A DNA stretch of 64,000 nucleotides. It comes from an uncultured Acidimicrobiales bacterium. Its GTDB lineage: Bacteria; Actinomycetota; Acidimicrobiia; Acidimicrobiales; SZUA-35. The notes under the pieces were generated by a model that made no database searches, had not been told where the DNA came from, and saw nothing but the letters and a program-made list of their open reading frames with translations. The stretch covers positions 62,001 to 126,000 of the forward strand of contig CALAJQ010000013.1 of assembly GCA_937922785.1 (NCBI GenBank), given 5' to 3'. Below are positions 37,614 through 61,431 of this stretch, one piece after another. Made by a program: the position numbers and the translations under genes. Each line of letters opens with the position of its first letter. Positions within the stretch are counted from its first letter, which is position 1.

Positions 37614-37637
37614 GTTTTAGCAGTAAGGAAATTCATA

Positions 37638-43806: not shown

Positions 43807-44228
43807 TCGTTAATTTCCTCCTGGCTTACGCACCGCCAATTTGTAAGTCCGGGAATAGGAAACATTTGCCAGCGCATTGTTTCTGCTCAGGTCAAGGTTT
43901 TTCTTCTTTCCCTTGGCTTGAGCCGCTCCTAGCGGGAGCGGGTTACCTCCTTCAGTGCCGCCAAAGGTTCAGAAGGCTCCAAATAAGGGTTTTCATATTT
44001 TCTGTTTGGACCCGCTCCCGCAAAAGAGTTTCTTTCTTCTTTAGCCGCCTCCCGTGAATTTGTCCATGGTTCACCGAGGGCAGTAAGCAAGCCAGCCTTT
44101 TCTCTTGGGGCTGGCTTGTTTGCTTTTTGAGTCACCGGAAACCACAACCGCACCGCACAATGGCCAAGTCTGTGCCTATCTGGAGCTTGCAGCCGTTACT
44201 TGACCAGGGGTTTTAGTGTTCAAGAGAT
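43807..44228. other. Non-coding right end of the element
   Basis: No gene is supported in these 422 bp. They hold a hairpin at 43924-43942 (CCGCTCC and GGAGCGG) and pyrimidine-rich runs, then the terminator at 44086. Portal, terminase or connector genes that would normally neighbour a capsid gene are absent. Confidence 0.75.
44086..44128 (+). terminator. Intrinsic terminator downstream of the capsid gene
   Basis: CAAGCCAGCC (44088-44097) pairs perfectly with GGCTGGCTTG (44109-44118) around an 11-base loop and is followed by TTTGCTTTTT. This would end transcription coming from the capsid gene before the attachment site. Confidence 0.8.
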
Positions 44229-44281
44229 CTTGAGGGGCTAGTGTCCGAAAGGACGTGGGGGTTCAAGTCCCCCCTCCGACA
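44229..44281 (+). repeat. attR: 3' half of a different tRNA-Leu
   Basis: The fragment starts with the 15 bases shared with attL, then has its own variable arm (GTCC-GAAA-GGAC) and T arm (GGGGG-TTCAAGT-CCCCC) and ends CTCCGACA. Each stem is internally complementary, so it is a genuine tRNA-Leu 3' half and not a decayed copy of the one at 34004. It lacks the 5' half and cannot be a functional tRNA. Confidence 0.85.
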
Positions 44282-45909
44282 CACTTATTAGTACACGCGT
44301 CGGGTCCCGCTGAGACCTGCATGCGTCCGTCGTCGTGGTAGACGACGGCGAGGTTGAGTGCGCTGTAGACGGCTTTGCGGTCTGCGGGTTCGGCGGTGGC
44401 CAGGATGGCGACGATACCTTTGAGCTGGCCGACGAGGTCTTTGATCTCTGCGGAGGTCAGTCGACCGTTTGACGTTTTGGGTCGGAGTGCGATCTCGGCT
44501 GCCTTGCGGGCCAGTTTCACTTCGGTGATCCATTCAGCTACGATTGTTGGGTCGGTGCCGGCTTCGAGGGCTTGGCGATATTTGGCGAGTTTGTCGTCGC
44601 ACTCGGCAAGCCTTTTGCGTGCCGCCGTGAGTCGGTTCTGCTCTGCCGGATCCGGGCCGAAGCCATCCTGCAGCGTGGCGCAGGTTTGGTCGATGTTGTC
44701 GTCGTCGAAGAGTTGGGCGAGCCACCCATCGATGGCGGGAGTGAGTGCGTCTTCTCGGACGTAGATGGTTTTTGGGTGCTTGTCGGTGGCGATAGCGTAC
44801 TCGGCAGGGAACTTGCATCGGTAGTAGGCGCGCTTGTGGTTCCAAGAACCTTGCATGCGCCGTCCGCACTTAGCGCATTGAACGTGTCCGCTGAGGAGGT
44901 ATGTGTGTTTGGTTCGCTCTCGACGGACCTTGGCTCTCTTCGCTCCGGTGAAGACGGCTTGGGCTTCCGTGAACTGTTCGAGGGTGACGAGGGCCTCGTG
45001 GGTGGGGTTTTCGGACCAGATCCAGTCGGATCGGTCGTTCCATCGCATCTTGGATTGGTGGCCGAGGGCTACGTCGTCGACGTCGAGGAGTTCTTCGTGG
45101 CGTTGTTGACGGTTCCACACTTGGAAGCCGGTGTAGCGAGGATTCTGCAATATCGAGCGAACGGCAATCTTGCTCCAAACGCCTTGGCTGGAAGCCCGGT
45201 GTCGGTTCCGAGATCGGTCGTATCCGGAAGGGGACAGGATTCCGTCTCGGGTCAGCCCCTCAGCGATCGAATAGAGCCCCGATCCGGCAACAAACTCCTC
45301 GAAGATACGCTTCACGTTTCCCGCGGTTTCAGAATCGGGTTCCAGTACTTGGAGTCGTTGCCCGAAAGCGGCCTTGCTCGGGTTGGGGTGCGCTCCTGCG
45401 TCGCCCAGCCTGTACCCGTAGGGCGGGCGGCCTCCGAGGAAGCGGCCTTCGATTGCGGCTTGTGACGCCATAGCGGCACGGACTCGGGTCTTGATTCGGT
45501 TTCGCTCGCCCTTGCTCATTCCGCCATACAGCGACATGACGAGGTCGTGGGCGTCGCTTCCCGGGTCGATCGGTCCGCCGACCTCAGGCACCCAGAGCGT
45601 GACGTCGTAGTGAACGAACACTGGGAACGTTAGGCCAAACTGGTTTCCGTAGAACGCTCGTTGTGGCTCGCCGATTACGACGGCGTCGAAGCCGCGGCTG
45701 GGATCCGCTAGGCGGTCGAGTAGGCGGTTCCCTTCAGGCCGTCGCTTCCAAGGAATTGATCGGGATTGGCCGATGTCGAAGAATTCTTCGACGATCTCCC
45801 CACCGGGCTCGATCAGCTGCCGGGAGCGTGCAAGCTGCCAGTTTCGTGACGATGTCGGGTCTTGTTGGTCTTCAGTACTGACCCGACCGTAGAAGGCGAA
45901 GTTCCCCAT
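44263..45909 (-). CDS. Large serine recombinase
   Basis: This 548-residue protein has a catalytic resolvase domain with nucleophile Ser11 (YGRVSTEDQ), then the recombinase domain starting near YGGMSKGERNRIKTRVRAAM and GRPPYGYRL, a zinc ribbon (CAKCGRRM, YYRC) and a C-terminal coiled-coil segment (about 440-515). These are the parts of phiC31-type integrases and related transposases. The last several codons lie inside the tRNA-Leu attR fragment, so its present C-terminus was created or altered by the insertion of the neighbouring element. It is the third gene of a short minus-strand operon. Confidence 0.93.
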   Translation of the reverse strand: MGNFAFYGRVSTEDQQDPTSSRNWQLARSRQLIEPGGEIVEEFFDIGQSRSIPWKRRPEGNRLLDRLADPSRGFDAVVIGEPQRAFYGNQFGLTFPVFVHYDVTLWVPEVGGPIDPGSDAHDLVMSLYGGMSKGERNRIKTRVRAAMASQAAIEGRFLGGRPPYGYRLGDAGAHPNPSKAAFGQRLQVLEPDSETAGNVKRIFEEFVAGSGLYSIAEGLTRDGILSPSGYDRSRNRHRASSQGVWSKIAVRSILQNPRYTGFQVWNRQQRHEELLDVDDVALGHQSKMRWNDRSDWIWSENPTHEALVTLEQFTEAQAVFTGAKRAKVRRERTKHTYLLSGHVQCAKCGRRMQGSWNHKRAYYRCKFPAEYAIATDKHPKTIYVREDALTPAIDGWLAQLFDDDNIDQTCATLQDGFGPDPAEQNRLTAARKRLAECDDKLAKYRQALEAGTDPTIVAEWITEVKLARKAAEIALRPKTSNGRLTSAEIKDLVGQLKGIVAILATAEPADRKAVYSALNLAVVYHDDGRMQVSAGPDACTNKCVGGGT

Positions 45910-46376: not shown

Positions 46377-46442
46377 GCCCACCTGTGGGCCGTCATTGAC
46401 CAGGAATGGGACAACCTCGCGCGAGAAATTAGCGAGAATCCT

Positions 46443-46496
<54 letters not shown>

Positions 46497-47081
46497 CTGG
46501 CCCGGAACCAATACGGTTTCGCGCCTTTACGTTGTTGAAGGGCAAGCAGCAAATGCCATAGATGTACTAAGGATGTACCTTGACAGATGTACCGTGAACG
46601 GATGTATCTCAACGGTACTTGTCTGAACCTGCGGGTTCGGTCGAAGGAGTCGGCCGCAACATCGAGTCCGCCGAGTCGCACGGCTACCAAACCAATATTG
46701 AACGGACCCACGAGGCCTGAGTGTGAACGGCTGCGAATCAGTAGGCGTTCAGCGTCTGAATCGCAACTTGCCCGTCAGCCGGCGTGCAGCCAGCTTTGCT
46801 CACCTACGGATGAGTCGGTGAGACTCAGCGAACTTTCGACTGGCGACCTCTCGCTGAGCGCTCGGAGGGCGGAGCGTTGTCCGTGAAATTGGCGCTAGTC
46901 AGCGGCCGACCGTCCACACGAAGCAATCGAGCGTGCACATTATCAGTTGCACTCGACGGAACGAGGTGGTGGCTTCGGAAAGCACTGGTTGCTTGGTTCC
47001 GATTGGATATCGCCCAACAAATCCTGTTCAACTGCGTTGCCTGTGCGACGCGCGCGATTTAGTCGAGAATCCAGCGTCTTG
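46497..47081. other. Non-coding leader region upstream of the ten-gene operon
   Basis: No convincing coding sequence is present; the frames here have no domain-like composition. Near the left end are four GATGTA repeats (46561, 46572, 46586, 46601) and a promoter-like pair, TTGACA (46580-46585) and TGTATC (46603-46608) with a 17-bp spacer. Transcription from there would give a leader of about 470 bases before the first gene, so another promoter may exist closer to it. Confidence 0.6.
46561..46608 (+). promoter_or_regulatory. Candidate promoter with GATGTA repeats
   Basis: GATGTAC or GATGTAT occurs four times with start spacing of 11, 14 and 15 bases, overlapping a TTGACA-N17-TGTATC promoter. 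The repeats may be regulator-binding sites for the downstream operon. No regulator gene is found in that operon, so the controlling protein would be encoded elsewhere. Confidence 0.4.
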
Positions 47082-47954
47082 ATGTGCGACGATGGCCTAG
47101 TGACCAACGAAAGTCCCGACTGCCAACTGCCGGACGCCAGCCAAATGCTGTTGGTGAACATAGGCGGGTCGAGAATCAGGATCGCACGCAGATCAATCTC
47201 AACTGGTCTGTTGGAAGTTGTTGTCGATGAACGGGCTTCCGACCGTCTCGCAGACCTCCTAGCTCTAGTCGGCGGCGTCGTGCACAGCGGTGGCGACGTC
47301 GATCTGGTCGCTGTGGCGTGTCCAGGTCTCGTAAGCTCTGATGGGACGGTTGCGGCAGCGCTACATAGCGCCGTGGCCCATACTGACCTCAAAGCGGAGA
47401 TCGAGGCGGTTTGTGACGCCGAGGCATTCGTAGCGAACGACGCAAGTGTCCAGGCAGCCGGACTTGCTGCTGGACGCTCCGATGCGCTCTTCGTGGCGCT
47501 CGGGACATCGGTCGGCGGGGCGGTGCTAAGATGTGGCACAGTCCTGGACGGGGGATTGGGTCACAGTGGTGAGATTGGCCACTTGGGGTCTGTCTATGCC
47601 GAAGGGCGCTGCAGGTGCGGACTGGAACGGTGCCTTGACCTGGTGGCATCCGGCTGGTCAATTGAGGACGACCTAGGGTCGGACTGGTGGCGTTCCGCCG
47701 AGTCAACCTGGAGGGCCCGGATCGAACTGGCTGGATTGGCCGTCGGAGCCGTCGGAGCCGATCTACAGCCGCTCCTAAGTAATGAGATCCTTATCGTGGG
47801 TGGGCACTTGGCCAGCCTGGAGGTGTTCAGGCAATCAGTCCAGTCGTCGTTTTCTGTGCCTGCGACGTGGGGAGAGCCTAAGGTGGAGTTCGTGAGCGAC
47901 CTCGACCAGTTGACATGGAAAGGCCTAATAGCCGTTACCGGAAGGAAGAATTGA
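47082..47954 (+). CDS. ROK-family sugar kinase-like protein
   Basis: This protein is 290 residues from ATG 47082; the frame is open from 46947 and an inner ATG at 47145 is also possible. The ROK signature is clear: a phosphate loop LLVNIGGSRIRIARR (Asn replaces the usual Asp), the catalytic-base region FVANDASVQAAG, FVALGTSVGGAV, and the zinc site with His in GHSGEIGHLG and Cys in CRCGLERC (about 177-183). ROK members phosphorylate glucose, N-acetylglucosamine or N-acetylmannosamine, or act as regulators; no DNA-binding domain is present here. It opens an operon with an epimerase and a deacetylase, which points to an amino sugar. Confidence 0.8.
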   Translation: MCDDGLVTNESPDCQLPDASQMLLVNIGGSRIRIARRSISTGLLEVVVDERASDRLADLLALVGGVVHSGGDVDLVAVACPGLVSSDGTVAAALHSAVAHTDLKAEIEAVCDAEAFVANDASVQAAGLAAGRSDALFVALGTSVGGAVLRCGTVLDGGLGHSGEIGHLGSVYAEGRCRCGLERCLDLVASGWSIEDDLGSDWWRSAESTWRARIELAGLAVGAVGADLQPLLSNEILIVGGHLASLEVFRQSVQSSFSVPATWGEPKVEFVSDLDQLTWKGLIAVTGRKN

Positions 47955-47958
47955 CTCA

Positions 47959-48768
47959 ATGACGGATTTAACCACATTCCCAACTCTTTGTTGGTCAGTC
48001 GCCGCCAATCCCAGCCCCCTAGGGGTTAAAATGCACAACGCAGGGTACGAGGCTGCGGGGCTGGACTTCACGTACGTCGCTACTGGAGCTTCAGAGATCG
48101 GGCCCGTAGTTGACCTTGTTCGACGGGCAGGAGTACGCGGCTTGGGTGTCTCGATGCCTCATAAGCAGACTGTGATTCCCGAGCTGGACGACGTGTCCGA
48201 GGCAGTGACAGCTATTGGTGCCTGCAACACTGTAGTCAACGACGCGGGACGGCTAACTGCGCATAACACCGACCATTTGGGCGCATGGCGGGCGATTGAA
48301 GAGGCTGGCTTAGACAGTGTCGAAAATGCTCTGGTTGTTGGTTCCGGTGGTGTCGCTAGAGCCATTACTTACGCCCTCACGACTCATGGAATCGACGTGA
48401 AGATAGTTGCTCGCAATGAGCAAGTAGGCGAGACTCTGGCTGAAGACTTGGGAGCAGAGTTCGTAGGTTCTCCGGGCAGATCAGCGATCCACGCGGCGCA
48501 ACTCGTAGTCAATGCAACTCCAGTTACGGAGGTGGATGAGTGGCCGCTGGACCTTGAACAGTTTCCGAAAGCGCGCGGGCTTCTGGACGTGCACTTCGGC
48601 TCACTGAATCCGCCCCTTTGCTTGGCGGCTGAGGCGCGTGGATGGGATGCAGCTCGCGGGTGGCGAATGCTCCTGCACCAGGGCGTCGGTCAATTCGAGC
48701 TGTACACCGGAGTCTCCGGTCCAGTAGATGCGATGGCCAGCGTTCTAGAGACGGCTCTCGGAGGCTAG
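47959..48768 (+). CDS. Shikimate dehydrogenase-like oxidoreductase
   Basis: This 269-residue protein has an N-terminal substrate domain with SPLGVKMHNAGY and VSMPHKQTVIPELD (catalytic Lys69), an AHNTDHLG motif (catalytic Asp105), and an NADP-binding domain with VVGSGGVARAITYAL. It resembles AroE and the YdiB/RifI-type quinate or aminoshikimate enzymes. Because it sits in an accessory operon, a specialised role is more likely than the core shikimate pathway. It starts 4 bp after the ROK gene. Confidence 0.85.
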   Translation: MTDLTTFPTLCWSVAANPSPLGVKMHNAGYEAAGLDFTYVATGASEIGPVVDLVRRAGVRGLGVSMPHKQTVIPELDDVSEAVTAIGACNTVVNDAGRLTAHNTDHLGAWRAIEEAGLDSVENALVVGSGGVARAITYALTTHGIDVKIVARNEQVGETLAEDLGAEFVGSPGRSAIHAAQLVVNATPVTEVDEWPLDLEQFPKARGLLDVHFGSLNPPLCLAAEARGWDAARGWRMLLHQGVGQFELYTGVSGPVDAMASVLETALGG

Positions 48769-48790
48769 CGTCATCAGCGGCGGCGCAGCG

Positions 48791-49528
48791 ATGCTTATCG
48801 GCGATGACGGCGGAGTCTCGCCGGAGATTGACGCGGCGCTGATCGAGTTGCTGAGCAAAGGCGTATTGAAGTCAGCTGACGCCATTGTGAATGGCCGAGC
48901 GTCCACGGAGTTGGTGCGTGAGCTTTCTCTGCACGACCCAATTCTCGGGTTACATCTCAATCTGAGCACTGGCGCGCCGGTACACACGGAACCAGCGTCA
49001 AACCTTGCGCCGGGTGGTCGATTTCTTACACCGTCGGCTTGGGTTGGACCGCACTCTGGTGTCGATGAAGCGCTAGCGGCTCTTGTCGAGCGAGCATCAA
49101 CTTGGCCGCGATCGGAGATAGTTGCCGAAATCGCACAGCAGATCGCTCGATTCGAGGCAGTGGCTTGTCGACCCCCTGCTCGGATCAGTGTTCATCACGA
49201 TTTGGATCAAGTCGATGTCGTAGCTGAGGCAGTCGCCCAGTGCACCGACGTGCAGACTCGAAGAATGCAAGTCGACTCGGGCAGCATTGCGTCCTACGGA
49301 TACGGCTTCGCGCCGGATCAGTCGACGCCCGAAGACTGGCGAGACGGGATACTGAGACGGATTGAGCGTGCGCGCGTTAGTTCGGGTCGACATCTCATAG
49401 CCTGTCACCCAGCGAAGTCAGCTCATGGTTACGAGGACTTTTCGGCGTATTCGAACGGTCGAGTCATCGAATATCAGGGCCTACTTCTACTTGGTCAGGG
49501 ACGTACGAATGGGGTCGAAATTGTCTGA
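48791..49528 (+). CDS. YdjC/ChbG-like carbohydrate deacetylase
   Basis: This 245-residue protein opens with LIGDDGGVSPEIDAAL, the metal-binding Asp pair (5-6) of the YdjC family, then GLHLNLSTG (His55) and ISVHHDLDQVDVVAEAV (His135-136). The family removes N-acetyl groups from chitooligosaccharides, hopanoid precursors and other acetylated sugars. Metal ligands are intact, so activity is likely. It overlaps the next gene by 20 bp. Confidence 0.8.
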   Translation: MLIGDDGGVSPEIDAALIELLSKGVLKSADAIVNGRASTELVRELSLHDPILGLHLNLSTGAPVHTEPASNLAPGGRFLTPSAWVGPHSGVDEALAALVERASTWPRSEIVAEIAQQIARFEAVACRPPARISVHHDLDQVDVVAEAVAQCTDVQTRRMQVDSGSIASYGYGFAPDQSTPEDWRDGILRRIERARVSSGRHLIACHPAKSAHGYEDFSAYSNGRVIEYQGLLLLGQGRTNGVEIV

Positions 49529-51854
49529 TGAACTGGTGGCAGTAGAATTCTCTGGCGAAGAGAGCGCCCGATTTACTCGGTTCGCAGTGCTAGCACTGGA
49601 CGCTGGTTGTGGCCTATCCGTTGATGTCCTTGGTCGTGAGCCGCTGACGAGCCGGGTAGTGAGAATTGCAGGACGGCTCGTTGAGGCGAGACTGGACGGC
49701 TACATGCGATATGTGGTCGTAGAGGACGTTGGAGCGGTCCGAGTAAAGAACTGGGTTGGGGGAAGCAATAGCACCCGGAGTATAGCGGCGCAGCGAGTCA
49801 CCTATTTCCTGACGGATGAGGATGTTGCAGCGTGTCTGACTCAGGCTGAGGAACAGGAAGTGCTCCTGCCCGGAATCTCGCAAATCGACACTGAGCTAGG
49901 GCAAGTGAGTTCCGAGGCAGTGGCGATAGATAATGCATTGACTGACCGTGATCTCAAAGCCCTGGACGCTGTGCTCGCCTTCGTCGAACCAGGGATCTTA
50001 GACGGGCCGACTAAGCGCGAAGCGGCGTTAGGACTCAGATCCTTTGCGGAACTTGCATCGGACGGGATAAGCATTCAACGCCGAATCGAACGGTCAATCC
50101 TAACCGCCTTGGAGCAAACATCTGACCGCGACACACGGATCGCGCTCGTCGAGAATCTTGGGTACTTCGGTACCGAGGACTCGGTTCCAGTACTCACTGA
50201 AAAGGCAATTGACGATGCTGACCCCCACACGCGGTGGGCAGCTATTGTTGCCCTTGGACGTGTACCTGCGGCGGTTGAGATCCAGGTTCTCCTCGATGCC
50301 TTCGAGGTAGGTAGCGCGCCGCTTGAAGAAAATTGGCCGACTGCTGCAACCCTTCTGAGCATCGCGCGTCGCGTCGAGGAGTCCGAGCTTGAATTGGTGC
50401 AGCCGTTGCTTGGGCGTGTTGTGGGAGGCGGGGAGCCGACGCTTGCGCGCTATGCATGTCTTGCTCTTTCTCGTTTCACAGCTGTTAATGACGAGGTTGT
50501 GTCAGCTCTTATGTCTTTGCTCGGGGATTCTACCGCAGTGGCAAGCACCCGCGGGTATGCAGCGCTTGCGATATCAGGCTTGCTGCGCTCTCTGAGGGAC
50601 GATCAACTTGAAGGAGTTGAGGCACTCGTAGAGTCGTTGCATCAGGAACAGGTGCTAGGCGTCGAAGAACCAGAAGACGTATGGGCGACGGAGTTTCTCG
50701 CGGAGCTCGCTTCATTGCTTGAGATGGAGGCCGTCTCGGCACAACTAAACCGCACGCTTTCCGATGCTTACACCGATTGGCGAGCAGACTACTACTACGC
50801 TCTTGCAAGCTACGCCGAGGCTGAGCTCCAAGTGCGGAACGAAGCGCCGGCCGATGCGGCGAGGAATTTCCAGGATGCCGTTCGGCGGTTGGAAGGGATG
50901 GAGAAAGCGATCCGTGCGGAGGATGGACTTCATCGAGCCACGGCTACCTTTCGACTCGACATCACGAGGGCCCGCTTGCGTCTGCACAATCTCTTGGAAG
51001 CATGGCCAGATGCAATGGCTAGTCAGAGGCTCGACACGCTTATCGAGGAGGCCGATGAGGTGGCGGCGATCTACCGGCGGTATTCGTCGCACGAGACTCA
51101 GCTTGTTGGACCAAAGCACTTGAGTGAACGGGAACTTGAGTATGTCGTTAGTACTTGTCGACTTGTAGAACTTCTACGCCTCTTGCTCGACCTCGACCGC
51201 GCGACTCGTGCACCCGGTGATGACAAGAGCGTTGAGATTATCGACCGAGTCCACGACGCGGCCCGCGTGTTGGCAAAGCTTGGCGATCGCTTCGAAGCCA
51301 GCCTCGCTCGCGGGCTAGGCGGTTTGGTTAGCAGCCTGCAGAAGCGAATCGGCGACTTGGAAGCGGTACTTGCTGTGGATGCTGCCACCCTCCGAACAAA
51401 GCAGGATGCGGTTCGCGACGAACTGGATGCGGTCAGGTTTGCGTTCGGCCGTGCGAACTGGCCGATGCCTGCGAGGGCCTGTCCCGTTGGCGGACTCGGC
51501 CGCGGCGAAGTGTCGGTAATAACGGAAGGTTTGTCGGGAGACGGATCCCGAAACGAACCGCTCGAGTATAAGCTCGATGGCCCGGTGGTAGTCAACGTCG
51601 CAATCAAGATTCAGGAGATGGCTCCAGGTGGTTCGACGCGAGCTGCAGTGAGGCTCCGAGTCGGTCAAGAGGACCACGTGGAACCGGTTCACGCCGTGGA
51701 GGGACCGACGACTGTCTCAATCTCTCTGAGAGTCGACGTGCCACAGACTCAATGGCAACGGGCCGAACTCAGTCTTGAATTCACATCCCGTGACTGTGAG
51801 CAGACTGCTGCGCGGTCGGTCTTCTTTCTCAAGCGATCGGGTGGTGCAACTTGA
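49509..51854 (+). CDS. Large HEAT-repeat protein of unknown function
   Basis: This protein is 781 residues from ATG 49509 (frame open from 49425, but that part overlaps the deacetylase gene). Layout: an N-terminal mixed domain (about 1-120), HEAT-type repeats (about 180-380, with DTRIALVENLGYFGTEDSVPVL and PHTRWAAIVALGRV as clear units), a helical region with TPR-like and coiled-coil stretches (about 400-660), and a C-terminal beta-rich domain (about 685-781). No enzyme motif is visible. It is the largest protein of the operon and would serve as a scaffold or sensor for the others. Confidence 0.65.
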   Translation: MGSKLSDELVAVEFSGEESARFTRFAVLALDAGCGLSVDVLGREPLTSRVVRIAGRLVEARLDGYMRYVVVEDVGAVRVKNWVGGSNSTRSIAAQRVTYFLTDEDVAACLTQAEEQEVLLPGISQIDTELGQVSSEAVAIDNALTDRDLKALDAVLAFVEPGILDGPTKREAALGLRSFAELASDGISIQRRIERSILTALEQTSDRDTRIALVENLGYFGTEDSVPVLTEKAIDDADPHTRWAAIVALGRVPAAVEIQVLLDAFEVGSAPLEENWPTAATLLSIARRVEESELELVQPLLGRVVGGGEPTLARYACLALSRFTAVNDEVVSALMSLLGDSTAVASTRGYAALAISGLLRSLRDDQLEGVEALVESLHQEQVLGVEEPEDVWATEFLAELASLLEMEAVSAQLNRTLSDAYTDWRADYYYALASYAEAELQVRNEAPADAARNFQDAVRRLEGMEKAIRAEDGLHRATATFRLDITRARLRLHNLLEAWPDAMASQRLDTLIEEADEVAAIYRRYSSHETQLVGPKHLSERELEYVVSTCRLVELLRLLLDLDRATRAPGDDKSVEIIDRVHDAARVLAKLGDRFEASLARGLGGLVSSLQKRIGDLEAVLAVDAATLRTKQDAVRDELDAVRFAFGRANWPMPARACPVGGLGRGEVSVITEGLSGDGSRNEPLEYKLDGPVVVNVAIKIQEMAPGGSTRAAVRLRVGQEDHVEPVHAVEGPTTVSISLRVDVPQTQWQRAELSLEFTSRDCEQTAARSVFFLKRSGGAT

Positions 51855-52594
51855 AGATTCTTCAGCTGAACCTGTGGAACACAAACGAACCAGTGGCCGA
51901 ACGCATGCAGACTATTAAGGCCGGGGTTGAGGTTCTCGCACCGGACTTCATCACCTTCCAAGAAGTGAGTCCCCAAAACGGGCGTCCGCAGATTGAGGGT
52001 ATGGCCATCGACCTCGACTACAGGATGTACTACGCAGACGCGGGTGCGTTTAGGGGGCGCAGGGAGGGCAATGCGATCCTTAGCAAACGTTCGGCGGTGC
52101 AAGTCGAGACCCTCAATCTCTCAGACCCCGACGTGGACCTGCAACGAGTCGCGCTTTGTTGCTTCTTTGACGGATCTAGTGGCGGGCGATTTGCGATACT
52201 CTCCACTCATCTTGCGTATCCGATTGACGCTGACGCCGCGAGGTCGAATCAGGCTGCGGAACTGGTGTCGTTTATCGAGGCGAGCGGGGCCAGAGCCGCC
52301 TTCGCCCTCGGGGCGGACTTGAACGCAGTTCCATCCAGCGAAGCCGTTGGCAAGCTTCTGACCCTGGAGGGAGCGAAGGACGCTTGGGATCTCGTCCCGC
52401 CAGGTGGACCCAAGTTCACGTTTTCAGCTGACAACCCGCTCGTTGAGGAGCGACTATGGCCGGATCGCAGGATCGATTACATCATTGCGGGTGGTCAGCT
52501 GAAAATTGAGTCTTGTGAGGCTGTGTTCACGAAAGCAAACCATGGCATCGCGTCCGACCACTATGGAGTGCTGGCCGAAATCGTGGAGCTTTAA
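51851..52594 (+). CDS. Endonuclease/exonuclease/phosphatase-family hydrolase
   Basis: This 247-residue protein starts from a TTG that overlaps the upstream stop by 4 bp (TTGA). All catalytic motifs of the EEP fold are intact: LQLNLWN, FQEVS (Glu38), EGNAILSK, STHLAY, GADLNAVPSS, RIDYIIAG and ASDHYGV. The fold cuts DNA or RNA, inositol phosphates, sphingomyelin or other phosphodiesters; the substrate cannot be told from sequence. Neither signal peptide nor membrane anchor is present, so it acts in the cytoplasm. Confidence 0.85.
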   Translation: MKILQLNLWNTNEPVAERMQTIKAGVEVLAPDFITFQEVSPQNGRPQIEGMAIDLDYRMYYADAGAFRGRREGNAILSKRSAVQVETLNLSDPDVDLQRVALCCFFDGSSGGRFAILSTHLAYPIDADAARSNQAAELVSFIEASGARAAFALGADLNAVPSSEAVGKLLTLEGAKDAWDLVPPGGPKFTFSADNPLVEERLWPDRRIDYIIAGGQLKIESCEAVFTKANHGIASDHYGVLAEIVEL

Positions 52595-53613
52595 TGGTTT
52601 CGGTAGCACTCGTCTTCGGAACTCAGGCAGAGCTAACAAAGACCATCGGGCTTGTCGCGTCCGTCCCGGCCGATATCGATCTTGGTGTCTGTTGGACTGG
52701 ACAGCACCCTGACCTCGTTCCTGACGCTGCCACCGATCTCGGGCAGCCGGTGATGATCAAGGACTCGCTGGTCGAACTGAGCGACAGCCAGCTGAGGGCT
52801 TGGCTCGATCGGGCGGCCCCCAACCTCGTAGTCGTCCAAGGTGATACTCGGTCAGCTCTCCTTGGAGCTCGCGCAGCCTCTTCCCTCGGCATCAGGGTCC
52901 TGCATCTCGAGGCAGGACTTCGGCTGTCCGCAGTGTTAGAACCGGAAGAAGCGCACCGCCGAGAGATAACTGCCTTGGCTGACTTTCATGTATCCAGCGA
53001 TGATAGGTCAACGTCAAATCTTCGCCGCGAGGGTGTTCCCTTGGCGAAGATCCGCACGGGCGTCCCGCTCGCTTCGATCTATCTAGGCTACCTTTCGACC
53101 GTGGCAAGGTCTCGCCTCGCCGAAGGGAGCTCCGGGGCAATCGTCGTCACTATTCACCGGGCTTCGGCAATCGATCGTCAGCCCATTCTCTCCTCGGTTC
53201 TTAAGGAACTAGGTGGTCGCCTCGAGGGCGAGAAGATCGTGCTTATTCGTCGACCCGACGCTCGTTGGCGTCCGTTATATGACGAGCTTGCCGAGGTTCC
53301 GAATATTGACCTAGTTGATGAGCTTTTGCCGAGCGCGTTCAATGACCTGATCAGGCGTGCCAAAGCAGTATTGACAGATTCGGCCGGAGTGCACCAGGAA
53401 TGCGAGATCCTTGGAATTCCACATGTCGTGTTGCGACCTGAGTCCGAGCTTCCAGGTAGAGCTAGACATGTCCCTATTCTCGATGCTGGGTTCATTTACG
53501 AGATGATTGTGCTGGCTATGAAGGAAGGACGTTGTGCCCAAAGCTCTGCGCCGAGTCAGTGGCGAAGCGACGCCGACCGGTTTTGGGAGTGGGTGGCTGA
53601 GTGGGCAGCGTAG
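52594..53613 (+). CDS. UDP-N-acetylglucosamine 2-epimerase-like protein
   Basis: This 339-residue protein is coupled to the previous gene by TAATG. It has the WecB/NeuC fold: VFGTQAELTK in place of the usual GTRPE, VVVQGDTRSALLGA, LHLEAGLR, EEAHRREITALADFHVSS, VVTIHRAS and LTDSAGVHQECEILGIPHVVLR. The Asp, Glu and His residues expected in the active site are mostly in place. It is slightly shorter than the usual 370-380. The hydrolysing type makes N-acetylmannosamine plus UDP, which would fit a neighbouring ROK kinase. Confidence 0.85.
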   Translation: MVSVALVFGTQAELTKTIGLVASVPADIDLGVCWTGQHPDLVPDAATDLGQPVMIKDSLVELSDSQLRAWLDRAAPNLVVVQGDTRSALLGARAASSLGIRVLHLEAGLRLSAVLEPEEAHRREITALADFHVSSDDRSTSNLRREGVPLAKIRTGVPLASIYLGYLSTVARSRLAEGSSGAIVVTIHRASAIDRQPILSSVLKELGGRLEGEKIVLIRRPDARWRPLYDELAEVPNIDLVDELLPSAFNDLIRRAKAVLTDSAGVHQECEILGIPHVVLRPESELPGRARHVPILDAGFIYEMIVLAMKEGRCAQSSAPSQWRSDADRFWEWVAEWAA

Positions 53614-54230
53614 CGCAAGAAGAGCAAGTGCCATCCGAGCCGGCGGCGGAGCTGGAGACGGCTGTGCCCGCCGAATGGTATGAAGTCCTGGCGGAAACAA
53701 TTCAATCCTTTTCCGAGGTCGTTGCTGTGCTTATTGGCGCTGGGCTCACTATCTGGTTGAGCCGTCGCGAGCATGAACGGCAGCGAACAGCCGCCCGTGA
53801 TGAGCGTCGCCTCGACGCTGGAACGAGTGTGATCGAGAGTATGGATCGACTTATCGATGCGGTTGAACTGACGAAGCAGTCGGCAACCAGCGTTGTCGAT
53901 ACGGACGGGTTAGCGGCGGGTGCGTTGAAAGTTGCTCGCATCGAGGCGCTGGTTCCTCAACTTGCGCAGACAGTGCCTGAGATGCTTAGCGCAACCAAAG
54001 ATCTGCGGACATCCCTTTTAAGGTATGAACTCGTAGCAAGCAAGAAGGTAGCGGCTTCATCAACGCTGCTTGAGTCTGCTGCTGCATTCGCGGCCTCAGC
54101 TAAGTCGGCCTCAGAAAGCACCGGCGACGATGCGATCTCCCATTCCGCAGCCGTATCGGACCTGTTTGAGAGTGTGCGGGCTGGCCTCGATTCATTGGAG
54201 AGTGAGGTGTGGGATGACCTCGCGGAGTGA
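53601..54230 (+). CDS. Single-pass membrane protein with cytoplasmic coiled coil
   Basis: This 209-residue protein starts from GTG 53601, overlapping the epimerase gene by 13 bp. A Glu-rich N-terminus of about 30 residues precedes one membrane helix (about 38-54, VVAVLIGAGLTIWLSRR), after which come long Ala/Ser-rich helices suggesting a coiled coil. No enzymatic motif is seen. It may anchor the operon's other products at the membrane. Confidence 0.6.
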   Translation: MGSVAQEEQVPSEPAAELETAVPAEWYEVLAETIQSFSEVVAVLIGAGLTIWLSRREHERQRTAARDERRLDAGTSVIESMDRLIDAVELTKQSATSVVDTDGLAAGALKVARIEALVPQLAQTVPEMLSATKDLRTSLLRYELVASKKVAASSTLLESAAAFAASAKSASESTGDDAISHSAAVSDLFESVRAGLDSLESEVWDDLAE

Positions 54231-54933
54231 TTTCTCATCGGCGGTGGTTGATACCTTCGCTCGGCGGGCTGTGCAGTATGATGGAGAGTCGGTCTGGATG
54301 CGGGATAGCCGAGCGCTGCAACCGCTCGCTCCGGAGCCCTTCGGGAACCGAGTTGCCCTGGATCTTGCCGCCGGAACGGGACTCGTTGGAGCGGTCCTCG
54401 CGGAGAGAGGGTGGAGCGTTGTCCATCTTGACATCAGCGCGGAAATGCTCCGAAGTGCGGGTGGCAGCAGAGTCGTCGGGGACAGTCAGTTCTTGCCGAT
54501 TCGAGAATCGAGTGTTGACCTGATCGTTTGCAGACAGGCTCTGCACTACTTCTTGCTCCCTGCGGTGGCGAGGGAGATACGTCGGGTAGGGGCCGCCGAG
54601 ATTAGGTTGGGTCAGATCGTTGCTCCGAACGAGGTAGCTGCGAAGTGGTGGAATGAGCTCTTCCAGGTCCTTGCGCCTGGTCGACGCCGTGTTTTCTTGC
54701 CTGGCGAGGTTGAAGACTTCGCTAGGTCAGTAGCAGCAGGCTGGACGGCATCCACCGAGCGCTTCGCGCTAAGGGATGACTTCCGCTCGAACTTCGCTCA
54801 TCTCGAGGAACCCAGTAGACAGGTTGCAGATTCGATTGTCTCGTCCATGCCAGCCGAGGTGTCGGCTGCCATCGATTTCCGTGATGGAACGTACCGTCAG
54901 GACTGGGAGATCGTGAAGGCTGGTCGGAAGTGA
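54214..54933 (+). CDS. SAM-dependent methyltransferase
   Basis: This protein is 239 residues from ATG 54214 (the frame is open further upstream but lies inside the previous gene). Motif I is VALDLAAGTGLVGAVL, with Asp after strand 2 (VVHLDIS), then VVGDSQFLPIRESSVDLIVCRQALHY. It belongs to the Methyltransf_11/25 group acting on small molecules. It overlaps the membrane-protein gene by 17 bp. The GTG of the following 36-residue frame overlaps its stop codon (GTGA). Confidence 0.82.
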   Translation: MTSRSDFSSAVVDTFARRAVQYDGESVWMRDSRALQPLAPEPFGNRVALDLAAGTGLVGAVLAERGWSVVHLDISAEMLRSAGGSRVVGDSQFLPIRESSVDLIVCRQALHYFLLPAVAREIRRVGAAEIRLGQIVAPNEVAAKWWNELFQVLAPGRRRVFLPGEVEDFARSVAAGWTASTERFALRDDFRSNFAHLEEPSRQVADSIVSSMPAEVSAAIDFRDGTYRQDWEIVKAGRK

Positions 54934-55040
54934 GCGAGGCGAAGGACCACCTTGTGAGCCGTGCCCCCGCTGATGACAAGAAGAGCGTTTACGGCGTTGT
55001 CCCGTATCTGGCGACGTGCTTCAATCGGTACGGATCATGA
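54930..55040 (+). CDS. Predicted 36-residue peptide between methyltransferase and DHPS-like genes
   Basis: The frame starts with GTG overlapping the methyltransferase stop (GTGA) and ends in ATGA overlapping the next ATG, so it is coupled on both sides, as are most genes of this operon. It encodes a charged N-terminal half (SEAKDHLVSRAPADDKKS) and an uncharged, aromatic C-terminal half (VYGVVPYLATCFNRYGS) with a single Cys. That leader-plus-core look is reminiscent of precursor peptides, but it could also be a non-functional spacer. I do not recognise it. Confidence 0.4.
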   Translation: MSEAKDHLVSRAPADDKKSVYGVVPYLATCFNRYGS

Positions 55041-55798
55041 AGGTTTTCGGGATCATCAACGCATCTCCTGACTCTGCCGCAAAGATGTCGGTTGTGTCGG
55101 GTCCCGAAGAGGCTTTAGGCCGAGGCCAAGCACTGCTGGACGAAGGAGCTTTCGCGCTCGACCTTGGTGGTCAGAGCTCTGGTGAACAAGCGACAGTCGT
55201 GTCCCCTGAGGCGGAATGGAACCGTCTCGCGCCGTCGCTCGAGGCCCTATTAGATCTCGGTTGTCCTGTTTCCATCGACACGTGGAGGCCAACTGTTGCA
55301 CGTCGAGCATTCGAGATGGGGGCAACAATTCTCAACGCTGCCGACGGACTTCAGGCTCCAGGTATGGCGCAGTTGGCCGCAGAGTATGACTGCCAGATCG
55401 TCCTCCCGTTTTTGTCTGGCCCGGACCCGAAAAACCTGGCGATGGTGACCGGACACCCGCTTGACACAATGGTCGCATGGTTCGAGCAACGGCTCGCGGA
55501 CGCCGACACCCTCGGTATTCGTGAGAATATCGTTGTTGACCCAGGCACCGGATTTGGGCCGGCGAATTGGGATTGGCCTGACCGTTTTCGGTATGTGCTA
55601 GAGACTTACCAAGGTCTGGAACGCTTGCGAGTCTTCGGCCTCCCGCTCTACATCTCTGCGCCGTGGGTGGTCTCTGAGGAGCGGCGACTGCTGCTAGACA
55701 CCTTTCTCTCCCACGACGTCGAGTTCGTCAGATCTCACTTCCCTGGGCGGGTCATCGATCGTCGACGGGAGCTGATGGAGGCGGATGACTCGGGCTGA
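55037..55798 (+). CDS. Dihydropteroate synthase-like TIM-barrel protein
   Basis: This protein is 253 residues from ATG 55037. It matches the pterin-binding family at FGIINASPDS, ALDLGGQSSG (Asp42), VSIDTWRPTVARRAFEMGA (Asp81), ILNAADGLQ (Asn100) and VVDPGTGFGP. The C-terminal Ser-Arg-Lys motif that holds para-aminobenzoate in true FolP is missing; PLYISAPWVVSEERR occupies that place. A different second substrate is therefore likely. It is the last gene of the operon, and its end overlaps the broken integrase gene on the other strand by 47 bp. Confidence 0.75.
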   Translation: MKVFGIINASPDSAAKMSVVSGPEEALGRGQALLDEGAFALDLGGQSSGEQATVVSPEAEWNRLAPSLEALLDLGCPVSIDTWRPTVARRAFEMGATILNAADGLQAPGMAQLAAEYDCQIVLPFLSGPDPKNLAMVTGHPLDTMVAWFEQRLADADTLGIRENIVVDPGTGFGPANWDWPDRFRYVLETYQGLERLRVFGLPLYISAPWVVSEERRLLLDTFLSHDVEFVRSHFPGRVIDRRRELMEADDSG

Positions 55799-56932
55799 CA
55801 TTGCGGTACGCAATCTCGTGCAGTTGGTCGAGCTGTTCATCGAGGGCGGCCTCTAGTCCTGGGAAGAGGTGGCCGTAGGTGTCTAGTGTGACTGTGCTCG
55901 TGCTGTGGCCGAGGCGCTCCACAATTGAACGGGGGTGAGCACCTTTCGAGATCAGTAGGGCAGCGTAGGAATGGCGGAGGTCGTGGAATCGGGTTCTGTC
56001 GGAAAGCCTGCCCGAACAACTGCAGGCTTAAAGTGGCGCTTGAACCAGTTGCCATATCGAAACAGTCCGCCTTCTGGAGAGCGCCAAACGAAGTCAGCGT
56101 CGTGCACCCCACCAATGTGCTCCTGGAGTTCGACGACGAGAGAGGCGGGCTCAGGTACTGAGCAATGCTCGTAGGTCTTGGTTGGAACGATCTGTAACTC
56201 GCCACGTGCTTCCGGCGCCGACTCTCGTACATAGATGCGCTTGCCCTCGAGGTCGATCGCTTTTCGACGACGAGCCACCAACTCACCGGCTCGGAGGCCT
56301 GTGAATGCGGCTGTGCGGACTAGCAAGCCGTACTCCGGGTAACCAGGCTGGCGACGCTCGCCTCGGCGATAGCGCTGTGGTGGTCGGCTGACCTCTTCGG
56401 CCAGCCGGATGATCTGATCGGGTTCGAGGAAGATCACCTCCCTGCGTCGTGACTTGGCGACCTTTACGCCGACGACTGTATTGGACCTTAGCGCTTCTGA
56501 TCGGACGGCGAGCTGAAGCACGAGCCGGAGTACATCTCTGATGTTGCGGATCGTTCCCGCTCCGAGCCCGCTCGCCTGCAAATGGCTGATGAAGGTGAGC
56601 ACCGTTGGGTACTCAATCGCACCGATCGGCCAGGTCCCGAATCGCTGGGGAAGGTGTTTCCGCACGATGGACTCGTAGCTTCCTGCAGTCTTCGGCTTCT
56701 CGTCACCGAGCGTTGTAAGCCAACGCGCTACCCAGATCTCGAAAGGCTCCTTGCCCTTGTTTGGATCAATCCAGTCGCCACGGAGGAGGTCGGCCTCAAC
56801 GGTGTTGGCGAACCTAGGGGCGTCGATCTTGCGATCGAACGTCTTCTTTCGTTGTCGCCGCCCTTCGTCGCGGTAGCGGACGTCCCACTTCATGGCCCCA
56901 GTTGACGTCTTACGTTTTTGTATGTCAGCCAT
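55752..56932 (-). pseudogene. int: Tyrosine integrase broken by a one-base frameshift
   Basis: From ATG 56932 the frame encodes an arm-binding domain, a core-binding domain and most of the catalytic domain (FTGLRAGELVARRRK with the first Arg). It then reaches AGFPTEP and runs into a stop near 55950. One base earlier or later at about 55999-56004 restores DRTRFHDLRHSYAALLISKG, AHPRSIVERLGHST and TLDTYGHLF with the His-Arg, His and Tyr catalytic residues, continuing to a stop at 55752. The loss of one base is thus the only defect. It may be a recent mutation, a sequencing error, or less likely a programmed shift. Confidence 0.85.
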
Positions 56933-57192: not shown

Positions 57193-58575
57193 TCACGCGC
57201 GTCCCGTGGGAACAGGAGCGATCTGGGATAGCCACGCTGCCCAATCGGTGCCGGCTTTGCCGCTTATGCAGCCGCTCGTTGGTGCCGCAGCGGGTGGGAT
57301 CGGCGTGTGGCGGATGATCCCAAGGAGCATCGGTTGCGGGCACACCGCCTGGCCGTAGGCACGTACCGAAAGATGCAGGTGAGGGCCAGTGGTGTTGCCA
57401 GCGCCTGGTGTGCCGGGCTGTCCTCCGCTTAGACCCAGAAGCTCACCGGCAGCGACTTGGTCGCCGACGTTCACGTTGACGAGTGACAGGTGGCAGTACG
57501 TGTAGCGTGTCCCGTGGATTCCCTCGATGATCACCGTGTTTCCGCATCGCCCCGACCCGCCGGGCACATAGATGTCTGCGTTGCTGATGGCGACTGAAAT
57601 TACGCCGTCAGCTATGGCAAATAGCGACGTACCCACCGGGAGAGCGATGTCCGCTGCTGGGTAGTCGTGGTGGGGGCGGGTGGCGATCGCCTCGGTCGCA
57701 TATCCCAGTGGAACTGGGTATGCGTATCCACCGACCAGCGGTCCGACGGCCGAAAGCGGCCCGGTGTAGGTTGCCGCCCATTCCAAGACCAGCTCGACAT
57801 ATTCGGTTGAGCGGTTGTAGGCGAAGATGGCGGCCTCGATGTCGGTCACAGATCCGTGGGGGCAGAGGTGAGCAACCGCGGCACGCACTGCGTCGAAGAT
57901 GTTCTGCGGATCGCGAGTCCCATCGCCGTTTCCGTCCCGCCCGTAGATCGTCCATGATGTCGGGATGAATTGAAACGGCCCTACGGCCCGATCCCACACG
58001 GTGTCGGTGTCGTAGATTCCGCTGTCTGTGTCCGGAATGGCGGCGGTCCCGTTAGTGCCATCGAGAGCTATCCCGATGATCGGCGGAGCGGCCACGCCAT
58101 CTGCTCCGATTGAAGCGCCGCCAAATCGGCCATGGTTGCTTTCGACTTTCCCGATCGCGGCGACTACTTGCCATGGGAGTCCGGGACATGCCGCGGATTG
58201 TGCGGCGTAAACGCGCAACAGCGCGGCTGGGATGTCGGCGACTGCCTCGTCGGAGGGTGCAAACACTGCTTGTCCCGCAGCAGCTGAGCCTGACATCGTC
58301 GCAGAGACTATGACAACGAGCCCAGAAAGTGCGGCGAGGGGTATTGCCAGAACCACTACGCCGGCAGCCGCGAGCTTCGAAATCACAGGCGTGCACTCCG
58401 TCGACTGCCGAATCTTGACCCAAAGCCGAAGTGCCACGTCGTCGCTGACAGTTGAGCGTTTGCGAGTGTCATGCCTTCCTGTGGGCCCCTGTGTGCCAGT
58501 ACTGGGACAGTTCAGGCGATTCTGTCTGTGTCCCGCTGGCGCTGATCGTGCGGCCCACAGATGTGTGGTTCGCAT
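57193..58575 (-). CDS. Lytic transglycosylase/M23 peptidase, cell-wall hydrolase
   Basis: This 460-residue protein may alternatively begin at a GTG around residue 47. A membrane helix (about 65-90) is followed by a transglycosylase domain (about 120-275: AAIGKVESNHGRFGG with catalytic Glu, VGPFQFIPTSW, AIFAYNRS) and an M23 metallopeptidase domain (about 300-425: HHDYPAADIALPVGT, TRYTYCHLS, GNTTGPHLHLS). Two-domain proteins of this type open the peptidoglycan for conjugation or secretion machines. The neighbouring integrase, excisionase and Tad-like genes support a role in element transfer or pilus passage through the wall. Confidence 0.9.
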   Translation of the reverse strand: MRTTHLWAARSAPAGHRQNRLNCPSTGTQGPTGRHDTRKRSTVSDDVALRLWVKIRQSTECTPVISKLAAAGVVVLAIPLAALSGLVVIVSATMSGSAAAGQAVFAPSDEAVADIPAALLRVYAAQSAACPGLPWQVVAAIGKVESNHGRFGGASIGADGVAAPPIIGIALDGTNGTAAIPDTDSGIYDTDTVWDRAVGPFQFIPTSWTIYGRDGNGDGTRDPQNIFDAVRAAVAHLCPHGSVTDIEAAIFAYNRSTEYVELVLEWAATYTGPLSAVGPLVGGYAYPVPLGYATEAIATRPHHDYPAADIALPVGTSLFAIADGVISVAISNADIYVPGGSGRCGNTVIIEGIHGTRYTYCHLSLVNVNVGDQVAAGELLGLSGGQPGTPGAGNTTGPHLHLSVRAYGQAVCPQPMLLGIIRHTPIPPAAAPTSGCISGKAGTDWAAWLSQIAPVPTGRA

Positions 58576-58824
58576 GGGTAAATCGCCCCAAAGCTGTGGA
58601 CAGTATACGAATTAGTTGCTAATAGTAACGCTTAGAAAGTAATAAACGTAATTAAGCGTAAACGAACAAATTCAACCAGAAACGAGTTTTGCCTCAATGA
58701 TTACGACCTGTTGCTGCGCCGATCCGACGTGCTCAGCAAAAGCTAGCTTGCGCCACCCTGAGATCTTTCGTGACACACCCAATAGAGACACTGGAGTTAC
58801 TCGACTCAAAAGGAGGATTCTGCG

Positions 58825-59811
58825 ATGCACCGCCCACATCTCTCCTCAGTCCTAGTGACAGGTGCTCTCCTCACCGCTGCGTGCAGTTCGCCGCCCAGCG
58901 ATAGTGCGAGTCCTGCAGGAGGGCAGCCCGAAACTACGTCCATCACTACTCCGGCTACAGAATCCACGGCCGAAGTGATGGTGACCGCTCTGCCACTAGA
59001 ACCTGCGGGCGCAATCAAGACCTGGGAGGCAATGTGGGACGGCGTCGAGCTAGTCGTTACCGACCCAGGTGAGGCGAGAGAAAGGATCGGTGACGTAGCG
59101 ACGGACCAGGTGCTCGATCAACTGGACAGAATCTACAACCCGAAAGTCGAGTCCGAAGTTGCCAACAGTGCCCGCCTGTTTGACAACAACCCCGTGCTGG
59201 TCGAGCTGCTAGATGGAACGGTAACGATCAATGACTGCATGTTTGTGGCCCCCAAGTTTGGCAACGCCACAATTTGGTATTCCGGGCGCCTTACCGAAGT
59301 TGGAGGCGAATGGCAGGTGCAGGCGGTCAACCTGGAATCTGAGATTGGATGCGTCCCGTCTCAACTCGCCGAAGCTGCTATCGCAGGTTACGAGAACTAC
59401 TGGGACGCCCGAGTGCAGTTCTGGGATCCACCGGATCCCGCGAGTCCACTCGTCGACGCAACACTCACCGGTCCGCAATTAGAACTAGTCAATTCGCTGC
59501 TCACCGACCATCAGCGTCGCGGGTTAGCGCTACGCGGCCGTGCCGAGAATCACCCGGAGGTGATCGAGGTCAGGTCGCCTGACGAGATAGCGATCTTGGA
59601 CTGCAAGTTCCAAGACCCAGGTCGGGGATTGTTCGATATCGATAGCGGGGCCCGCCTTGCTGGCATCCCCGCAATAGCTGAAGGTCAGAGGGATCTTACG
59701 TCTGCGGTGATGATTCTGGAGGGCGGGGTCTGGAAGGTCTCCGATGTACAAGGAAAGGCGGACGTGTCATGCGATATCGCACCGACCACCCAAGGGCTTC
59801 CGCTCGTTTAG
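58825..59811 (+). CDS. Lipoprotein of unknown function
   Basis: This 328-residue protein has a strong ribosome site (aaaggagg) and a lipoprotein signal ending LLTAAC with Cys20. A Thr/Ser/Pro-rich linker (about 22-55) is followed by two repeats of a domain that looks alike: each has an NPKVES/NHPEVIEV-type segment, a strand with IxDCxF (TINDCMFVAP; AILDCKFQDP), and a strand with GGEWQVQAV / GGVWKVSDV. The pair suggests an NTF2/SnoaL-like fold duplicated. The first gene of the rightward operon, preceded by a 249-bp divergent AT-rich region. Confidence 0.7.
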   Translation: MHRPHLSSVLVTGALLTAACSSPPSDSASPAGGQPETTSITTPATESTAEVMVTALPLEPAGAIKTWEAMWDGVELVVTDPGEARERIGDVATDQVLDQLDRIYNPKVESEVANSARLFDNNPVLVELLDGTVTINDCMFVAPKFGNATIWYSGRLTEVGGEWQVQAVNLESEIGCVPSQLAEAAIAGYENYWDARVQFWDPPDPASPLVDATLTGPQLELVNSLLTDHQRRGLALRGRAENHPEVIEVRSPDEIAILDCKFQDPGRGLFDIDSGARLAGIPAIAEGQRDLTSAVMILEGGVWKVSDVQGKADVSCDIAPTTQGLPLV

Positions 59812-60761: not shown

Positions 60762-60764
60762 GTA

Positions 60765-61430
60765 ATGAAGACGACCTTGAGACCGCGAGGCAACGGTGCC
60801 AAAGCGCCCCGAATTGATGGCGCCTACTTCGAACTTGAGCCGCCATCGGGAGGTGGTCGTAGCCGTTGGCCGGAGATTACCGTGGGCCTGCTTGTTATTG
60901 GCATCTTCGCCCTTGCTGGTGGGTGGATCTACTCGAACGCATCTACGACCGAGCCGGTCGTTGTGTTGCGGGCCGACATGGAACGTGGGCAGCAAGTAAC
61001 CAGCAACGACCTGAGGGTCGTCGAAGTCGGCTCGGAGGAGGCGTTGAACCTCGTGGGCGCCGGCCAAACAGATGCGCTCATTGGTCAAATAGCACTCGTC
61101 GACCTGGACGCAGGGACTTTGGTCAACCACAACCTGTTCGCGAACGGCGCAGCCATCGCCAACGGAGACGGCATTGTAGGCATGGCGCTCGACCCCGGCG
61201 AGTATCCAACACTCTCGATGAGGCCGGGGGACCGTGTACGTGTTCTGGCGACGAGCAGCGACGAAGGGCAGCAAGTGTTGGCCGAGAGTGCTGAGATCAT
61301 CGACGTCGCTCCAATTGGTGTGCAAAGCCAGCTATTCGTATCGGTCGCAGTGCCGACGGCCCAAGCCGACGCAATCGCATCAGCGAGCGCCGAAGACCGG
61401 GTGCGCCTCATCCAAGTCGGAGGCGAGTGA
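60765..61430 (+). CDS. CpaB/RcpC-like SAF-domain protein (second Tad set)
   Basis: This 221-residue protein has one N-terminal membrane helix (about 36-60, EITVGLLVIGIFALAGGWIY) and then a SAF domain (VVVLRADMERGQQVTSNDLRVVEV; LIGQIALVDLDAGTLVNHNL) followed by a CpaB-like C-terminal part ending RVRLIQVGGE. It is the counterpart of the gene at 1-357 but clearly diverged. It is the first of four genes ordered as in Tad loci. Confidence 0.8.
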   Translation: MKTTLRPRGNGAKAPRIDGAYFELEPPSGGGRSRWPEITVGLLVIGIFALAGGWIYSNASTTEPVVVLRADMERGQQVTSNDLRVVEVGSEEALNLVGAGQTDALIGQIALVDLDAGTLVNHNLFANGAAIANGDGIVGMALDPGEYPTLSMRPGDRVRVLATSSDEGQQVLAESAEIIDVAPIGVQSQLFVSVAVPTAQADAIASASAEDRVRLIQVGGE

Positions 61431-61431
61431 G

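Follow-up and report, generated by a model that had tools for sequence, protein, structure and literature searches.

Known enzyme families in an unmatched combination: a ten-gene operon, possibly a specialised metabolic pathway, in a mobile setting of an Acidimicrobiales genome

In a stretch of 64,000 nucleotides from an uncultured Acidimicrobiales bacterium (assembly GCA_937922785.1, contig CALAJQ010000013.1, positions 62,001 to 126,000; here called the window), open reading frame (ORF) calls and reading of the sequence place ten plus-strand genes back to back between positions 47082 and 55798. This operon brings known enzyme families together in an unmatched combination and lies in a mobile setting. 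We read it, with a probability of roughly 45%, as a mobile specialised metabolic pathway that would make or tailor one small molecule with enzymes of amino-sugar, shikimate-like and pterin type. This reading is supported by six of the ten proteins, which belong to small-molecule enzyme families (ROK, SDH, YdjC, epimerase, methyltransferase and DHPS-like, as named below). If the pathway works, it represents a compact mobile metabolic operon from a little-studied class; we know of no case in which its enzyme types act together. The ten genes are the following, all on the plus strand:

47082–47954, plus: ROK-family sugar kinase-like protein, 290 amino acids (aa) (PF00480, 3e-23)
47959–48768, plus: shikimate-dehydrogenase-like oxidoreductase (SDH), 269 aa (PF08501, PF18317)
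48791–49528, plus: YdjC/ChbG-like deacetylase, 245 aa (PF04794, 1e-23)
49509–51854, plus: large HEAT-repeat protein, 781 aa (PF13646, 9.9e-15)
51851–52594, plus: endonuclease/exonuclease/phosphatase (EEP) family hydrolase, 247 aa (PF03372, 9e-17)
52594–53613, plus: UDP-GlcNAc (uridine diphosphate N-acetylglucosamine) 2-epimerase-like protein of WecB type, 339 aa (PF02350, 1.6e-39)
53601–54230, plus: transmembrane/coiled-coil protein, 209 aa, with a single hydrophobic stretch and a charged tail that is probably helical (from the sequence, by eye)
54214–54933, plus: S-adenosylmethionine-dependent methyltransferase-like protein, 239 aa (PF08241, 3e-13)
54930–55040, plus: 36-aa ORF (from the sequence)
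55037–55798, plus: divergent dihydropteroate-synthase-like (DHPS-like) protein, 253 aa (PF00809, 1.5e-36)

A previous interpretation of the window, made without database searches (the sequence-only reading), had described ten genes on one strand, at most 22 bp apart and mostly overlapping, and this layout was confirmed. The junctions measure, in order, +4, +22, -20, -4, -1, -13, -17, -4 and -4 bp (negative values are overlaps), i.e. seven out of nine overlap and the widest gap is 22 bp, counted with the HEAT start at 49509. All ten frames are intact, and in each of them the GC content is higher at the first than at the second codon position, a coding composition. Most likely, the ten genes form one transcription unit. 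A scan for regulatory RNAs (Rfam) yielded tRNA matches and nothing else, and patterns of promoters and terminators were no more frequent than in shuffled sequence. The HEAT frame opens at 49425, but because the motif AGGGACG stands just before the ATG at 49509, the latter appears the likelier start, giving 781 aa and a 20-bp overlap with ydjC. The 36-aa ORF (MSEAKDHLVSR...) exactly fills the interval between the methyltransferase and DHPS-like genes through GTGA and ATGA stop/start overlaps; it found no match in PHROGs, the sole library against which this predicted ORF was scanned.

Pfam supports the ROK, shikimate-dehydrogenase, YdjC, HEAT, EEP, Epimerase_2 and pterin-binding families as well as a methyltransferase fold. 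Thus, seven families named by the sequence-only reading and its methyltransferase stood, whereas its membrane coiled coil matches no family: this protein found nothing significant in Pfam, NCBIfam or PHROGs and no plasmid relatives at E 0.01. Among the NCBIfam matches listed for the nine operon proteins scanned, none attains its curated cut-off. For the HEAT protein, a structure model with a predicted local distance difference test score (pLDDT) of 47 suggests, at low confidence, a beta N-terminal part, the HEAT region, long helices and a C-terminal beta part.

In the proposed pathway the epimerase would act on a nucleoside-diphosphate amino sugar, YdjC would deacetylate and ROK would phosphorylate. 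The SDH-like enzyme would act as reductase on a ketone of shikimate or cyclitol type, the methyltransferase would decorate the product and EEP would remove a phosphoester. The DHPS-like protein might join a dihydropterin to a nucleophile other than para-aminobenzoic acid (pABA), or it might be an altered copy of the folate synthase, and the HEAT and membrane proteins could keep the enzymes assembled at the membrane. A narrower version, in which the mobile pathway joins a pterin to an amino sugar or aminocyclitol, we regard as improbable. Here, the DHPS-like enzyme would couple dihydropterin pyrophosphate, coming from folate synthesis, to a non-pABA amine provided by the epimerase, YdjC, ROK and the SDH-like enzyme.

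Three of the enzymes were compared residue by residue with relatives. In SDH, K69 and D105, presumably the catalytic Lys and Asp of the family, are the same as in all 29 relatives, but G22, V23 and F213 stand at positions where all 29 carry S, P and Y. Of the solved structures, HI0607 (1npy, E 4e-36) is closest to SDH; its Lys and Asp align with those of SDH, and in the stretch preceding the first helix both proteins depart from ordinary AroE. Among the matches listed (25 of 30 families), SDH stays under every AroE-type NCBIfam cut-off (all at least 196), the best score being 182.7 against 252 bits. The epimerase retains D84, E106, E118 and H188, likewise present in 29 out of 29 relatives and which we take to be the catalytic Asp, Glu, Glu and His. 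In these it is like WecB, but other fixed positions are changed: R220 replaces an H and A264 a G, each fixed in 29/29 relatives, and H267 stands for Q. EEP has D156 and D209 (22/22 relatives), H120 and N158 (20/22) and D236 and H237 (19/22), presumably active-site residues, together with A155 where 21 of the 22 relatives have G; a paralogue encoded by the genome of the window counts among the 22. Since catalytic residues are kept and otherwise fixed positions are changed, altered substrates are suggested, and we read SDH, the epimerase and EEP as probably working enzymes that have shifted in this way. The relatives compared were the top-scoring ones of each search, and the changed residues indicate departure from the common form, not a particular ligand.

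The sequence-only reading had proposed a route from UDP-GlcNAc to N-acetylmannosamine (ManNAc), with subsequent phosphorylation by ROK and deacetylation by YdjC. The three families stood; the route itself is less well founded. The epimerase scores 113.8 bits against the model of the non-hydrolysing WecB (TIGR00236), not reaching the cut-off of 210.15, and far lower, 31.4 bits against a cut-off of 235.9, with that of the hydrolysing NeuC (TIGR03568). It is of WecB type and not of NeuC type, and hence it is not expected to release free ManNAc. ROK lies below the cut-offs of the NanK models (43.1 vs. 283 and 37.2 vs. 450 bits), and its solved relatives comprise ROK regulators, glucokinases and ManNAc kinases. 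It retains the Cys cluster CRCGLERC and has NIGGS as its N-terminal motif, where ROK kinases have DxGGT. YdjC passes the gathering score of PF04794 (85 vs. 29.7 bits) but fails the chitin disaccharide deacetylase equivalog (48.4 against a cut-off of 227), and the amino-sugar specificities of both ROK and YdjC are thus putative.

The DHPS-like gene is the sole one of the operon with a traceable history. Its product resembles dihydropteroate synthase and Sul enzymes in fold: the model (pLDDT 86) has Sul2 (PDB 7s2k, TM-score 0.86) as nearest fold, and all 50 Foldseek matches listed are DHPS or Sul enzymes. Moreover, Asn8, Asp42, Asp81, Asn100, Asp168, Arg232 and His234 are common to it, to 15 rows of the lineage described below and to eight canonical rows. 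It differs from canonical FolP by a score of about 134.5–135.1 bits, under the TIGR01496 cut-off of 162.6, and by Val211 in place of a Lys found in 15/15 lineage and 8/8 canonical rows, presumably K221 of E. coli. The STRPG stretch of canonical FolP (five of eight rows; KAGPG in the other three) is replaced throughout the lineage. The genome of the window contains two canonical FolP proteins above the TIGR01496 cut-off in addition, which makes the DHPS-like copy an extra one, and it is probably not needed for folate.

This protein belongs to a divergent DHPS lineage of the Acidimicrobiia. Relatives with about 50% identity (42–53% over the lineage as a whole) exist in 7 out of 38 other genomes of the family. 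A scan with the DHPS-like alignment confirmed 114 loci, of which 80 were kept (L114–L193), almost all from Acidimicrobiia or other Actinomycetota according to their labels. A FolB-HPPK fusion protein is present at 51 of these 80 loci (at 46 within 1 kb) and a family-2 glycosyltransferase (GT2) at 48; the relative in Desertimonas flava (L174), for example, adjoins folB-folK. L019, L020, L021, L023 and L024 are further loci of this lineage. The set of DHPS-like, FolBK and GT2 genes is also seen at L118, on a contig labelled Rhabdochlamydiaceae, which means that either the set was transferred to Chlamydiota or the contig is misbinned. No other gene of the window operon was detected at the 80 loci at E 1e-4.

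In a tree, 81 lineage rows including the window copy are separated from seven canonical rows by a 100/100 split (the eighth canonical FolP, L092, is in the alignment and not in the tree). The window copy groups inside the lineage, yet its end branch is very long (1, against a median of 0.092) and its place there is unsettled. Its nearest rows by tree path (L125, L136 and L116) belong to a clade of 24 rows (L114–L117, L119–L121, L124–L126, L130, L132, L134–L136, L142, L144, L146, L147, L151, L156, L161, L170 and L186) in which neither FolB-HPPK nor GT2 is a neighbour at any of the 24 loci. Neighbours in this clade vary, for instance a pyridoxal-phosphate enzyme of Cys/Met metabolism and a hydrolase upstream (L121) or a dihydroxy-acid dehydratase (L144). 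Unlike many members of the lineage, the window copy has no folB-folK beside it in a Pfam scan of its neighbours. A canonical FolP above the cut-off is found in one of seven DHPS-like carriers compared with 27 of 31 non-carriers in the family (Fisher p 0.0005), a count that is based on draft genomes, with carriers that fall into three genera and are not independent and with 3 of the 27 canonical calls confirmed by the DHPS model. Those lineage members that are linked to folB-folK probably function as DHPS and may substitute for canonical folP, a conclusion that extends less directly to the window copy. A DHPS lineage that seems to stand in for FolP in some genomes bears on the variation in folate synthesis, and a member of it recruited into an operon bears on how DHPS-type enzymes gain new partners.

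Searches for the gene set elsewhere gave no second operon. Among 227 loci compared, nine hold more than one operon gene, and all nine are on the window's own contig. A full-length relative of the HEAT protein was not found in 72,556 plasmids, in viral contigs or 50,697 phage records, in 394 other genomes of the class, 365 others of the phylum and 13 of the family (for class and phylum, two first-look candidates were scored per genome), or in contigs of 84,980 species searched with close-match patterns. The genomes overlap between searches, and the window's own genome served as positive control in the HEAT searches of class and phylum only. When the HEAT and transmembrane proteins were joined into one query for the phylum, two genomes matched over some 65–80 residues, in the HEAT repeat only. 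EEP matches occur in 20 and epimerase matches in 158 of 396 genomes, each time with the own genome included. A second operon gene within about 1.5 kb was present at none of 22 further EEP loci, 29 of the many epimerase loci and 29 SDH loci; such flanks are short, and a scattered gene set would escape detection. With a joined SDH and YdjC query against 377 genomes of the order, the matches listed from other genomes start within the SDH part.

Plasmids hold relatives of SDH and EEP, with one annotated SDH region that looks catabolic and three other, unannotated regions, and none of YdjC at E 1e-5. The viral contigs contained no close relatives of the epimerase, SDH or EEP, and the DHPS-like alignment likewise found nothing there. 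Among the phage records, DHPS relatives appear in 19 and epimerase relatives in 16, at no more than 34.5% identity among the matches listed, and PHROGs includes families for both. Conservation of the operon genes together in other genomes, the check that the sequence-only reading had set beforehand, was thus not found in the genomes sampled. This makes the operon an orphan, yet not thereby unreal, and the absence of a second copy is a property of the sample and not of nature. The earlier statement that no described system has this gene set is contradicted neither by PADLOC nor by literature searches, in which none of the papers listed dealt with the gene set.

Several points weigh against a small-molecule pathway. 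No second copy turned up in anything searched, so conservation cannot back a joint function. Transporter, glycosyltransferase, ligase, carrier-protein and regulator families were not recognised in the unit by Pfam and NCBIfam; with none seen for transport, glycosyl transfer or regulation, a classic antibiotic cluster becomes less likely. A HEAT protein of 781 aa is, to our knowledge, unusual in clusters for specialised metabolism. Judged by their residues, two of the enzymes could be inactive, ROK through the missing aspartate of the DxGGT motif and the DHPS-like protein through loss of its conserved Lys. Finally, the residue comparison covers SDH (n = 29), the epimerase (n = 29) and EEP (n = 22), three of the six or more enzymes of the unit. 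As for similar systems, aminoshikimate clusters of the 3-amino-5-hydroxybenzoic acid (AHBA)/kanosamine type pair a ROK kinase with an SDH-like enzyme, as does the operon. Unlike in those clusters, families of aminoDHQ (aminodehydroquinate) synthase, aminoDAHP (amino-deoxy-arabino-heptulosonate phosphate) synthase and AHBA synthase were not found in the unit by Pfam.

That the operon serves defence or signalling, in that the enzymes would produce a modified nucleotide or sugar as signal while HEAT, EEP and membrane proteins serve as sensor and effector, seems unlikely to us, although the sequence-only reading had seen a fit and the location speaks for it. The genes sit among integrative elements and near a satellite-like element that carries genes for a capsid, a protease and a primase (see below), and integrative and satellite elements commonly carry defence cargo. 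In addition, the EEP family includes nucleases and the EEP active-site residues are kept, the HEAT protein contains a sub-threshold HepT-like match (E 0.012), and PADLOC reports mads_2 on the methyltransferase (37 bits, E 4e-10) and, marginally, SspE on EEP (E 0.006). However, both PADLOC matches are to generic domains whose partner genes are absent among the nine operon proteins scanned, and no PADLOC component set was obtained. EEP aside, Pfam, NCBIfam and PHROGs revealed no family of nucleases, NTPases, TIR domains, nucleotide cyclases or toxins, six metabolic enzymes exceed what the defence systems known to us need, and the relatives, phages, viral contigs and plasmids searched give no sign of spread. 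A conserved defence module was also considered as the leading reading and rejected, as there is no PADLOC set and no full-length HEAT relative in any search. Rather unlikely is a cell-surface or storage route for amino sugars that ends in a glycan or glycoconjugate. It would account for the epimerase, ROK and YdjC, all from amino-sugar families, but it leaves SDH, the DHPS-like protein, the methyltransferase and EEP unused; in the unit, Pfam shows no glycosyltransferase, flippase or polymerase families, the epimerase resembles WecB rather than NeuC, and the specificity models listed are all under their cut-offs.

The same rather low likelihood applies to a chance stack of cargo genes that share no function and decay in a mobile island. 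The set is not conserved in the samples searched, the adjoining integrase is frameshifted and two enzymes, ROK and the DHPS-like one, have odd key residues, all of which speak for it; ten intact frames with coding composition argue against it, and seven of nine overlapping junctions are hard to reach through independent insertions. Very improbable, finally, is a natural-product cluster in which the DHPS-like protein is an insensitive target copy shielding the producer against an antifolate that the remaining genes would make. Self-resistance by a target copy is a known pattern (PMC9113183). Part of the lineage may be a working DHPS, and six of the seven carriers in the family are without a canonical FolP above the cut-off. 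But the window protein has lost the Lys that all lineage and canonical rows compared retain, has a very long branch and finds its nearest rows in the clade with folB-folK at 0/24 loci, which makes the folate link indirect; pABA-like chemistry is not evident either.

The specialised-metabolism operon that we favour is, as we infer from the sequence, carried as cargo by an island in which several integrative elements are stacked. The mobile elements that the sequence-only reading had placed on both sides are present: on the left a serine recombinase and a satellite-like element, on the right a tyrosine integrase whose coding sequence is split across two frames in the present assembly.

34004–34089: tRNA-Leu, left end of the satellite-like element
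44263–45909, minus: large serine recombinase upstream of the operon (PF07508, PF00239, PF13408)
46434–46497, plus: tRNA-Met remnant (3' part) that resembles an att site at the left border (RF00005, partial, 46434–46488; end at 46497 by eye)
55837–56932, minus: frameshifted tyrosine integrase adjoining the 3' end of the operon (phrog_1, 4e-37 over 55952–56932)

After the tRNA-Leu come genes for an integrase, a prohead protease (encoded on the opposite strand), a primase-polymerase, an HNH endonuclease and a capsid protein, and a 54-base repeat of its 3' part (85% identity) lies at 44229–44282. The region 34004–44282 thus reads as a satellite-like integrative element, apparently closed by the tRNA-Leu repeat; terminase and tail families were absent among nine of its proteins scanned against PHROGs. 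Searches for the ends of the operon's own element did not find them, and no right end matching the tRNA repeats on the left turned up. Another contig of the source genome (L029, L030) has an intact tRNA-Met and, some 7.8 kb beyond it, a second copy of its 3' part, a pattern that marks a further integrated element. An element of this kind may have left the tRNA-Met remnant at 46434–46497. Beyond the broken integrase, the region 57193–63494 contains a minus-strand M23/transglycosylase protein and then plus-strand genes for a SAF-domain protein and a T2SSE ATPase, which we take to resemble a Tad-type pilus locus.

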